DNA of 64,000 bases from Syntrophomonadaceae bacterium (lineage in GTDB: Bacteria > Bacillota > Syntrophomonadia > Syntrophomonadales > Syntrophomonadaceae): positions 1 through 64,000 of the forward strand of contig JAAYJK010000050.1 of the NCBI GenBank assembly GCA_012522955.1. Reading direction: 5' to 3'. The translations under genes and the position numbers were made by a program. Of this stretch, positions 3,775 through 37,911 are shown piece by piece (position 1 is the stretch's first letter; each line of letters begins with the position of its first letter). Under the pieces are notes generated by a model. It worked only from the letters and a program-made list of their open reading frames with translations. It had not been told where the DNA came from and made no database searches.

Positions 3775-3816
3775 GTGTAACCTCTAAAGGAATTTAATAG
3801 TGAGAGGAGGTTACAC
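3775..3816. repeat. 10-bp perfect inverted repeat (hairpin)
   Basis: GTGTAACCTC at 3775-3784 is exactly repeated in reverse complement as GAGGTTACAC at 3807-3816, followed by TTTATTT. It lies 84 bases before the small gene at 3900. It may be an operator or leader hairpin; the T-tract is too weak to call a terminator. Confidence 0.5.
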
Positions 3817-3899
3817 TTTATTTAAAGACCCAAAAAGGTTATTATCAGGATAGAATTATTATTGCATAATACAATCATCGATCCAGAAGTTGAAGCGAG

Positions 3900-4235
3900 G
3901 TGTTAATTATTTTTGTTATCAGCGAGTTAGCCCAAAAGTACATTAAGAAAAAAGGTGGCCATGTCATGCTTTATATGCACCTGGTTCTGGCCGGGGGAGG
4001 ATGATGTGGCGGACCGCTGGAAAGCGAGCAGCTCCTGGTCGTTCGACCAGGCTCACCCCCGGATAAAGACAAAGGACAGTTTAAGCACATTATGGTGGAT
4101 GATATTAACCTATGGTATCATGGGTCCGTGAGGGCGGAAAGAGTCGATAAGCCGATTTTGATAGATCTCCGTAAAAGGTTTTTCTTGTCCAACCTGGAAG
4201 TAAAGGGCGCGAAAATTCTGGAAAATGTTATGTAG
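3900..4235 (+). CDS. Probable small selenoprotein with in-frame UGA (Sec-Cys motif)
   Basis: One frame is open from GTG 3900 to TAG 4233-4235 except for a TGA at 4002-4004. Read as Sec, it gives 111 residues with Sec35 followed directly by Cys36 in the context AGGG-U-CGGP. The N-terminal part (ISELAQKYIKKKGGHV) and the C-terminal part (KPILIDLRKRFFLSNLEVKG) both look like real protein, and 76 sense codons follow the TGA. From memory the layout resembles the small clostridial CC/Se-motif (seleno)protein family, where CC replaces UC in some members; function is unknown. The hairpin at 4034-4051 fits a bacterial SECIS, and a terminator follows at 4261. The start is uncertain: GTG 3900 has no separate ribosome site, while AGGTG at 3898-3902 could serve an ATT at 3909. 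The alternative is a Cys-type gene broken by a TGT-to-TGA change. Confidence 0.68.
4034..4051 (+). promoter_or_regulatory. Candidate bacterial SECIS element of the small selenoprotein
   Basis: CCTGGTC-GTTC-GACCAGG is a perfect 7-bp hairpin. Its loop starts 36 bases after the TGA and begins with G. Bacterial SECIS loops are usually about 16-37 bases after UGA with a G in the first loop positions, so this is at the far end of the accepted range. Flanking GAG/CTC could extend the stem across an internal loop. Confidence 0.55.
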
Positions 4236-4260
4236 CTTTATCCATAGGATATAACGATTA

Positions 4261-4294
4261 AAGCCGATTGCTAGTGTTTAGCATCGGCTTTTTA
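4261..4294 (+). terminator. Intrinsic terminator after the small selenoprotein gene
   Basis: AAGCCGAT (4261-4268) pairs with ATCGGCTT (4283-4290), with inner GCTA/TAGC pairing, followed by a T-rich tract. It lies 25 bases after the TAG, which supports 3900-4235 being a transcribed unit. Confidence 0.8.
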
Positions 4295-27534: not shown

Positions 27535-30234
27535 TTGGATATTAAATTAACTATAGATGGTAAAGAAGTGGTGGTGCCTCAAGGTACTATGTTGATAGAT
27601 GCATGCCGTCAGGCGGGTGCTGATATACCCACCTTTTGTTATGACCCTGATTTGAAATTAGCCGGTTCCTGCCGGATGTGCGTGGTACAGCCCAAGGGAT
27701 GGCGCAATTTGGTGGCAAGCTGTGTGACTCCCGCCCAAAACGGCATGGTTATTGAAACCGACAGCCCTGATGTCATCGAATCTAGGAAAGTAGTTTTGGA
27801 ACTGATGCTGTCCAGACATAAACTTACCTGCCACACCTGTGAAAAAGACGGAGAATGCAATCTGCAAGATTATTGCTATCGTTATGGGGTTACCGAGTCT
27901 CGCTTTGATGGAAAAGTGCATAATTTATTCAAGGATGACTCTAATCCCTTTATTGAAAGGGATTATGATAAATGCATAATGTGCACCCGTTGCGTAAGGG
28001 CCTGTGATGAAATTACCGGCGCTCGAGCCATCAACATCATGGACCGTGGGCATCATGCCAAGATTTCCACTGCCTTTGATGGGGAATTGGTTGATTCTCC
28101 CTGTGTATTCTGCGGGCAGTGTATAATGGTATGCCCGGTAGGGGCTTTGACCAGCAAGATAGCAGCTGGCAAAGGAAAAGCGGCGCAGAACGATAAAGTC
28201 TTAACCACCTGTACCTATTGCGGCACCGGATGCACCTTGGAACTCAATGTTAAAAACGACAAGATTGTGGGCGTTACTTCCAATCGTGATCCGGAATTAA
28301 GCCCGGTCAACCGGGGAGCCCTCTGTGTTAAAGGTCGGTTTGGCTGGGATTTCGTAAATTCTCCGGAAAGACTTACTACTCCGTTGATTAAAGAAAATGG
28401 GGAATTCCGTGAAGCGTCCTGGGATGAAGCCCTGGGTCTGGCAGCTGAGAAAATTAAAGGAATAAAAGAGCAGTATGGACCGGATTCCTTATCCATGTTC
28501 TCATCCGCTCGGATCACCAACGAAGAAAACTATCTGGCCCAGAAACTCATGAGAGCAGCGATTGGATCCAATAACGTGGACCATTGCGCCCGTCTCTGAC
28601 ACTCCGTTACTGTCGCCGGTCTGGGGGCAGCATTCGGAAGTGGCGCAATGACCAATTCCATAAATGAACTGGAAAGCGATGCCAAGTGCATTTTCCTGAT
28701 AGGAACCAATACCACTGAAAATCATCCAGTCATCGGCTATAAAATACGGCAAAACGTGTTAAAAAATGGGGCCAAACTGATCGTAGCCGACCCGCGCAAA
28801 ATTGAACTGGCTGAACTGGCCGATGTTTATATTCCTTTCAAACCAGGTACTGACGTAGCTCTCTTTAATGGCATGATGAATGTTATTATCAATGAGGGTC
28901 TGGCTGACAGTAAATTTATCGAGAACAGGACCGAAGGATATGAAGCTATGGCTGAAATAGTAGCCAAGTATCCACCGGAAGTAGCTGCTGAAATATGTGG
29001 AGTAGATGCTGAAGACATCATTAAGGCAGCCCGCCTTTATGCTGAATCAGAAGCCTCTTCCGTATGCTATGCCATGGGTCTTACCCAGCACAGCACCGGA
29101 ACCGATAATGTCAAGAGCTGCTGTAACCTGGCTCTCTTAACCGGTAACCTGGGTAAACCTGGAACCGGGGTAAACCCCCTGCGGGGACAAAATAACGTGC
29201 AAGGCGCCTGTGATATGGGAGCCCTGCCGGTAGTCTTTACTGCTTATCAGAATGTTACTAACGATGAGGCCCGGGCAAAATTTGAAAAAGCCTGGGGAGT
29301 AACTCTTTCTGGAATCAATGGTCTTACCCTGACCAAGACAATTAATAAGGCCTACGAAGGCGAAATCAAAGGATTGATAGTAATAGGCGAAAATCCCATG
29401 GTCAGTGACCCGGATCTGCACCATGTGGAAGAAGCCCTGGAGAAGCTGGATTTACTCCTGGTTCAGGATATATTCCTTACTGAGACCGCCAAGAAAGCCG
29501 ATATAGTTCTGCCCGGAGTAAGCTTTGCTGAAAAAGATGGAACCTTCAGTAATACTGAAAGAAGAGTGCAAAGAGTACGTAAAGCTATCAGCAATGTAGG
29601 AGATGCCAGACAGGATTGGGAGATCCTGTGTGATCTATCCACCCGTCTGGGTTATCCCATGTCCTATAATACACCGGAAGAGATATTCGAAGAAATAAGG
29701 ACTCTGACCCCCTCCTATGCTGGCATTAGCTATGCCCGCCTGGAAGGAGAGGGTCTGCCCTGGCCTTGTCCCACTGAAGATCATCCGGGAACCCCAATTC
29801 TCCATAAAGAGAAATTCAACCGGGGCCTGGGATTGTTCCATGCCATTGAATATATTGAACCGGCAGAACTTCCCGACGATGAGTACCCAATCATCCTGAC
29901 TACCGGCCGCAGCTTATATCACTATCACACTGGAACCATGACCAGAAAAGCCAGTGGCCTGGATGAGTTTATGCCCAGCAACGTGGTGCAGATCAGTTCT
30001 CCTCTAGCTAAAGCTAATAATATCGTGGACGGAGAAAAGATTCGTGTTACTACCCGCCGGGGAAGTATTGAACTTGAAGCTGAGGTTATTGATGGCATAC
30101 GTGAGAATGTAATATTCACCTATTTCCATTTCGCCGAAACGGCTGCCAATTACCTGACCAATGCCAGTGTTTTGGACCCGGTAGCAGGAATACCTGAGTA
30201 CAAGGTATCTGCCGCTCGGATAGAAAAAATATAA
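27535..30234 (+). CDS. fdhA: Formate dehydrogenase 1 catalytic subunit, selenocysteine-containing
   Basis: Read through TGA 28597-28599 as Sec355, the protein has 899 residues. In order: a [2Fe-2S] domain (CxxxxxxxxxxCRMC, then SC), a NuoG-type His-Cys cluster (HKLTCHTCEKDGEC), two [4Fe-4S] motifs (CIMCTRCVRACDE, CVFCGQCIMVCP), a further cluster CTYCGTGC, and the Mo/W-bis-MGD domain. Sec lies in HCARL-U-HSVTVAGL, exactly where formate dehydrogenases carry the metal-ligating Cys or Sec. The SECIS hairpin is at 28610. Start TTG 27535 follows GGGAGGGAGACGAA. A standard gene caller would split it into 27535-28599 and 28648-30234. With the NuoE and NuoF subunits it forms a cytoplasmic NAD-linked, possibly ferredoxin-confurcating, enzyme. 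Confidence 0.96.
28610..28630 (+). promoter_or_regulatory. Bacterial SECIS element in fdhA1
   Basis: Ten bases after TGA, CTGTCGCC (28610-28617) pairs with GGGGGCAG (28623-28630, one mismatch and one G-U) around the loop GGTCT. The loop matches that of the E. coli fdhF SECIS as I recall it and that of the second fdhA here. It recruits SelB with Sec-tRNA. Confidence 0.88.
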
Positions 30235-37275: not shown

Positions 37276-37420
37276 ATGGCCTTCGATATCACGAAAATCA
37301 TGAGTTTCTTAATCAAATGCGCGCTCCCCCCTGTTCCTTGAGTGATTACGGTATAAGTAAGTAATCCACAACCGAACCAAGCTGCAGGTATCACTAACGT
37401 AATCATTTCACAGGCCCATG

Positions 37421-37531
37421 ACTCCTTTCCAAGTAAGGGAGGCAAACCCGTTTCCAGATTTACCGTACCGGCTCTTAACCGTGTCGGCTAAGTCACCTTG
37501 ACCGAAGTTTTAGGTGAAGTAGCTTTGGAGC
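37421..37531 (-). ncRNA. Moco/Tuco-riboswitch-like aptamer B
   Basis: The minus-strand RNA has 5' GCUCC (37531-37527) able to pair with GGAG at its 3' end. The conserved core runs CUGGAAACGGGUUUGCCUCC, then UUGGAAAGGAGU (37432-37421). The core and closing stem agree with my recollection of the molybdenum/tungsten cofactor (Moco/Tuco) RNA motif. The intervening part contains a CACCT/AGGTG hairpin. It lies upstream of a molybdenum- or tungsten-dependent FDH and moeA, with a terminator between. Identification is by eye; a covariance-model search would settle it. Confidence 0.68.
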
Positions 37532-37578
37532 AAAGCTTTTGAAAAAAGTATTCAATTATGCTCTTTTCAGGTCTTATA

Positions 37579-37610
37579 GTCTATGCTAAACTTTATTACT
37601 CAGCATAGAC
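37579..37610. repeat. 9-bp hairpin between the two riboswitch units
   Basis: GTCTATGCT (37579-37587) and AGCATAGAC (37602-37610) are perfect inverted repeats directly after terminator A in the minus direction. The role is unknown; it may insulate the two units or mark a processing site. Confidence 0.5.
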
Positions 37611-37644
37611 AAATAAAAGGCCTCCTGTTGAAACAGGAGGCCTT
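37611..37644 (-). terminator. Terminator of riboswitch unit A (expression platform)
   Basis: Minus strand: AAGGCCTCCTG-TTTCAA-CAGGAGGCCTT (perfect 11-bp stem, 37617-37644) followed by TTATTT. It lies downstream of aptamer A and upstream of aptamer B. Confidence 0.88.
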
Positions 37645-37702
37645 GCTAACTGCAACCCATAGCTACAATGTGCTTTACTAGCATATTGGCAGCTAAAACT
37701 GT

Positions 37703-37795
37703 ACTCCTTTCCAAACACGGGAGGCAAAACCGTTTCCAGTTCCACCCACAGGCTTTAACATCATGGCTGATGCTTTAGACATCAAAGCTCGGAGA
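37703..37795 (-). ncRNA. Moco/Tuco-riboswitch-like aptamer A
   Basis: The minus-strand RNA starts with CUCC (37794-37791), contains a GATG/CATC hairpin, the core CUGGAAACGGUUUUGCCUCC, and UUGGAAAGGAGU (37714-37703) closing the outer stem. The core is almost identical to aptamer B, while the 5' domain differs. It lies 117 bases after the fdhD stop and is followed by its own terminator. Confidence 0.68.
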
Positions 37796-37911
37796 AAAAT
37801 ATTCTATTACATTCTTTTAATTCGACACAGCTTTAAATTTACCTGCCAAAATTACTAAAATTTTTTTATAAAATCTTACTGAATGGTGGTCGTTATGTAT
37901 GAAATTATTCT

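Follow-up and report, generated by a model that had tools for sequence, protein, structure and literature searches.

A predicted CC/Se-motif selenoprotein gene in a Syntrophomonadaceae genome and the probable kinship of its family with HesB/IscA proteins

The window, a 64,000-nucleotide stretch of contig JAAYJK010000050.1 from a Syntrophomonadaceae bacterium, contains a gene (positions 3909 to 4235, forward strand) that, judged by comparison with its homologues, very probably forms a monocistronic unit and encodes a small cytosolic selenoprotein of the CC/Se-motif family (NF041239). The gene itself was previously overlooked and is new; the family appears as a predicted selenoprotein in Table 1 of a review (PMC13188914), so this kind of protein is already known. 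Our best explanation as a whole combines the selenoprotein identity with a HesB/IscA kinship and an inferred soft-ligand role, and we put its probability at roughly 0.85. With the window gene, this predicted family of unassigned function gains one more member, and the wider comparison makes this family testable: it ties it to HesB/IscA with selenocysteine (Sec) at the first cluster-ligand position, and it points the Cys forms to arsenic and the Sec-Sec forms to aldehyde:ferredoxin oxidoreductase.

The frame from 3900 to 4235 (forward strand) has a single in-frame TGA at 4002-4004, directly followed by TGT, and is open on both sides, with 34 codons before the TGA and 76 after it. All of this had been described in an earlier sequence-only reading and was confirmed. 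That reading's coding frame turned out to belong to a real gene, but openness around a TGA is in itself no evidence: about 30 TGA-interrupted open frames arise by chance in the window. The case for the gene therefore rests on comparison, and it exceeds chance because homology, dN/dS values and SECIS conservation together rule out a chance open frame.

Read from GTG 3900 and with Cys in place of Sec, the window protein scores 41.1 bits against NF041239.1 (NCBIfam "CC/Se motif family (seleno)protein", Moor_selen_rel), for which the curated cut-off is 40 bits; the family that the sequence-only reading had named was the right one. The match is borderline, as the matched stretch scored 35.3 in the genome scan, and the relation is backed by the relatives and by a broader model built in this analysis. 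A Pfam search with the window protein alone gave no match. The window gene is the only NF041239 copy in its own genome. The family is present in 27 of 101 relatives' genomes, with a patchy distribution among Syntrophomonadaceae, and in 90 of 398 genomes of the phylum, and most copies have one in-frame TGA. The plasmid and viral collections searched for the family contained no relative.

The nearest homologue (L009), from a Syntrophomonadaceae metagenome-assembled genome (apparently G004, of the same genus), is 75% identical. Between the two genes, dN/dS is 0.15/0.52 overall (range about 0.26-0.37), and the NG86 values are 0.26 before the UGA and 0.30 after it, the pattern of a frame held by purifying selection both upstream and downstream of the UGA. 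In the tree, the window gene groups with L009, L026, L027 and L019, all Sec-encoding and from Syntrophomonadaceae, and the UGA-UGU pair is kept in the first three of these. We ran the homologue check that the sequence-only reading had proposed and found that the glycine-rich C/U column, which holds UGA in the window, has either UGA or Cys in almost every homologue, and that most non-Sec members have CC. Sec/Cys changes are recurrent on the tree, with at least five forced. Unrelated residues at the UGA position and disrupted copies in close relatives, which that reading had named as evidence against the gene, do not occur in the orthologue group. There are exceptions: the distant members L038, L082 and L083 have no Cys at the UGA position, the Cys-type Syntrophomonadaceae members L022 and L028 have CxxxC, and in the congener G002 the gene is reduced to its downstream part, which a deletion has fused to upstream sequence (remnant L203, G002:C17:56897-57091). 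Since this congener has lost the 5' half with the UGA, the gene is dispensable.

That loss, the patchy distribution and the many chance frames in the window would all suit a reading in which translation really ends at the UGA and the frame is either a pseudogene in decay or open by chance. The comparative sequence data already refute this reading and leave it hardly any probability: the UGA is kept in many homologues, dN/dS is well below 1 on both sides of it, and the SECIS hairpin carries compensatory changes.

The start was previously placed at GTG 3900, which is likely wrong because this GTG overlaps a Shine-Dalgarno sequence, GAGGTG (3897-3902, forward strand; identified by alignment with relatives), and is out of frame in L009. 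Orthologues start with M-F at a fixed spacing from the Shine-Dalgarno sequence; the window and L009 have ATT-TTT at this place after GAGGTG, and the ATT at 3909 lines up with the ATG, GTG and TTG starts of relatives. The alignment suggests that translation probably starts at this non-canonical AUU, which would give 108 codons with a TAG stop at 4233-4235; the gene's coordinates are based on the NF041239 match, the homologues, dN/dS and the start alignment. The UGA (Sec) and UGU (Cys) codons at 4002-4007 (forward strand) correspond to Sec32-Cys33 counted from the AUU, or to Sec35-Cys36 counted from GTG 3900. A probable AUU start together with an internal UGA illustrates why annotation pipelines overlook such genes.

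The intrinsic terminator that the sequence-only reading saw closing the unit is real: a terminator-like hairpin with a T-run lies at about 4260-4292 (forward strand; z -5.4) and is kept in L009 with a paired change. Upstream of the gene is a perfect 10-bp palindrome, GTGTAACCTC...GAGGTTACAC (3775-3816, forward strand), the right half of which is also found in L009; it may be a regulator site or an attenuator. An Rfam search of the gene region returned nothing significant.

The predicted SECIS element is a perfect 7-bp hairpin at 4034-4051 (forward strand; CCTGGTC-GTTC-GACCAGG, in RNA CCUGGUC-GUUC-GACCAGG), whose loop, GUUC, lies 36 nt downstream of the UGA and begins with G. The published bacterial SECIS model has a loop of 3-9 nt, a stem of 4-16 bp, a distance of 16-37 nt from the UGA, and a G within the first two loop positions (PMC13188914). 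The hairpin, which had been picked out correctly from the sequence alone, fits this model. It is more stable than all of 200 synonymous recodings (z -3.24), and the mean hairpin energy at the same codons is -8.6 kcal/mol in Sec members versus -3.9 kcal/mol in Cys members (p = 5e-8). Across 14 distinct same-register sequences, 97 of 98 stem pairs are preserved, most positions show several types of pair, and none of 5,000 sets of shuffled arms matched this conservation; restricted to the six sequences from Syntrophomonadaceae, the test gives a weaker result (152 of 5,000). A Leu/Pro swap between the window (LVVRP) and L027 (PVVRL) preserves the stem. The whole 61-nt UGA region does not fold with unusual stability (z -0.11), whereas the hairpin itself does. 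A hairpin closer to the UGA (loop GGAA, distance 14 nt) was rejected as the SECIS, as its distance is below the 16-37 nt of the model and the family's conserved SECIS codons hold the +36 hairpin instead. Where the SECIS would lie, the Cys-type member L028 still has a hairpin, which may be a fossil.

The host genome encodes tRNA-Sec and SelB (377 bits), which bears out the Sec machinery that had been presumed from two other UGA genes in the window. These two are FdhA-like by motif, with UGA at 28597 (plus strand) and 36150 (minus strand) within NVDHCAR-x-U-H. Two Moco riboswitches are located at 37406-37806 (minus strand), and elsewhere the genome encodes a HesB-like selenoprotein with one UGA (L138, G000:C113:3868-4095).

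Profile comparisons indicate that the NF041239 family is very likely a divergent relative of the HesB/IscA (A-type carrier) proteins. When the profile of 50 family members (A1) was aligned by hhalign with that of 26 HesB/IscA proteins (A2), the score was 60.3 and the probability 97%; the controls reached at most 15.6 in 100 column shuffles and 24.7 for the reversed profile, and among 30 neighbour families the highest-scoring unrelated one reached 22.0 (cluster 3 in that comparison is the NF041239 family itself). With only four canonical IscA-type proteins as the target, A1 scored 36.0, with shuffles at 21.1 or below. Weak PF01521 matches occur in 15 of the 50 members (best 8.8e-5) and NF038090 (IscA_HesB_Se) matches in six. 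The Sec column aligns with the Sec of HesB and with the first cluster-ligand Cys of IscA, in the glycine-rich loop. A direct match of A1 to solved structures was discarded as a chance match (E 0.51). AlphaFold run with two sequences gave a pLDDT of about 41.5, too poor for a structure search, so the fold kinship rests on the profile alignment.

The C-terminal CxC of these carriers is absent: the window tail contains no Cys, and the last 30 amino acids are without Cys in 96 of 102 members. For this reason, the window family is not classed among the A-type carriers, and the window protein would not be a normal Fe-S carrier. A variant A-type carrier that handles Fe-S clusters or metals, with the two Sec-Cys pairs of a dimer holding a [2Fe-2S] cluster, would agree with the profile kinship and with Sec at the first ligand position; it is unlikely, given that the CxC ligands are missing and that no isc or suf neighbours were seen in the family neighbourhoods examined.

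We tentatively propose, at somewhat less than even odds, that the family functions in soft-ligand binding. The ligand bound by the Sec-Cys pair would be persulfide sulfur or else a thiophilic metal or metalloid, for instance As(III), Cu(I) or Hg(II), and Sec would raise the affinity and reactivity of the site. Two such pairs would perhaps face each other in a dimer, and the protein would hold the bound ligand or pass it on.

The gene neighbourhoods bear on this proposal. ArsA, Acr3 or ArsP genes lie within 3 kb of 10 of 36 Cys members versus 1 of 46 Sec members (Fisher p 9e-4, an optimistic value because the ars-linked Cys proteins are paralogues, partly from one clade, and some share a locus). 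Cys paralogues, mostly with CC, are found in or beside arsenic operons (ArsR, ArsA, Acr3, ArsP) at L079, L080, L086, L105, L123, L171 and L173; the operon at L105 reads arsA-arsA-CC-acr3. Several family copies occur in one region of G170. The Cys paralogues near ArsA, Acr3 and ArsP, including L105, speak for a soft-ligand role, and the position of the window gene outside any ars operon speaks against it.

The window gene stands alone. The sequence-only reading had placed it between AAA ATPase and copA genes, which is correct for the window, but these neighbours are common only to the nearest relative, L009. There, as in the window, copA is convergent (161 nt downstream in L009 and 179 nt in the window), an arrangement that could suggest a part in copper homeostasis with the adjoining copA. 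We regard such a part as very improbable, as copA is on the opposite strand, and a copA partnership was rejected because the adjacency is not conserved in G001, G003 or other orthologues.

The same gene and fold could instead use the Sec-Cys pair as a redox centre, in which Sec would attack a peroxide, disulfide or persulfide, the adjoining Cys would resolve the intermediate to a selenenylsulfide, whose reduction would then fall to a thioredoxin or CoA-thiol system. This is a credible reading with perhaps a one-in-three standing. In a set of 70 members with a single Sec, the Cys closest to it is found at -3 (20), +1 (19), +3 (8), -2 (6), -1 (4), +4 (1) or +5 (1), and the resulting spectrum of UC, CxxU, UxxC and CU is typical of thiol/selenol redox sites. 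The position of the partner Cys is not fixed, however, and 11 of the 70 have no Cys near Sec, so a Sec-Cys pair is not essential family-wide. CoA-disulfide-reductase/rhodanese-type genes adjoin the Sec members L107, L113, L118 and L121 (L109 has a shorter homologue), and DsbD/CcdA-type genes adjoin L095, L100, L109 and L119; such neighbours favour redox, but the window gene has neither type. The HesB/IscA kinship points to ligand binding, and Cys forms recur beside ArsA and Acr3. Weighing the arsenic contexts against the CoA-disulfide-reductase and DsbD contexts, we lean to soft-ligand binding.

A sister clade has two UGA codons in tandem. TGATGA occurs at the same place in eleven loci (L067-L077; for example, L072:3019-3261 and, on the minus strand, L070:2974-3213), ten of which form one clade with a support of 100/89, and the SECIS loop lies 21 nt after the second UGA. 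The clade has a strong SECIS hairpin and shows purifying selection on either side of the UGA-UGA. An aldehyde:ferredoxin oxidoreductase-family gene is located just upstream in eight of the eleven loci, and a gene with an [Fe] hydrogenase C-terminal-type domain lies downstream of or overlaps the same stretch in seven. A literature search on the tandem UGA-UGA clade found no paper, a faint hint that it is unreported. A conserved tandem UGA-UGA on one SECIS would be a useful natural case for testing how Sec is inserted at consecutive codons.

Taken jointly, these comparisons suggest a HesB/IscA-related family in which a soft-ligand site of Sec or Cys takes up the first ligand position and its partner residue is mobile (UC, CU, CxxU, UxxC, CC, UU), in which one clade has a genuine Sec-Sec dipeptide served by one SECIS and mostly found in aldehyde:ferredoxin oxidoreductase operons, and in which the Cys forms are arsenic-binding partners of ArsA and Acr3. 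We consider this combined picture an even bet.

Compared with NF041239, the window protein has a full-length match above the cut-off and Sec at the C/U column, but it has an insert of about four residues after Sec, which moves the SECIS loop from +23 to +36, UC where the review gives CxxU, and a probable AUU start. The HesB-like selenoproteins (TIGR01911/NF038090, e.g., L138) share the order of elements, their Sec aligns with that of the family, and their UxGP motif resembles GGU-C-GGP in the window. In contrast to them, the window protein is without the C-terminal Cys cluster, has Cys directly after Sec, and alone gives no TIGR01911 match. The IscA/SufA A-type carriers (PF01521; PDB: 1r94, 1s98, 1x0g, 2d2a) are kin by profile, with their first ligand Cys in the glycine-rich loop at the position of Sec in the window family; the window protein differs by its missing CxC tail and by having no single-sequence Pfam match. 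ArsD-type As(III) metallochaperones are small proteins with a vicinal chalcogen pair. The window family may be likened to them by analogy, as it is likewise small with such a pair, and, although the window gene is outside an ars operon, Cys paralogues such as that of L105 adjoin arsA and acr3.
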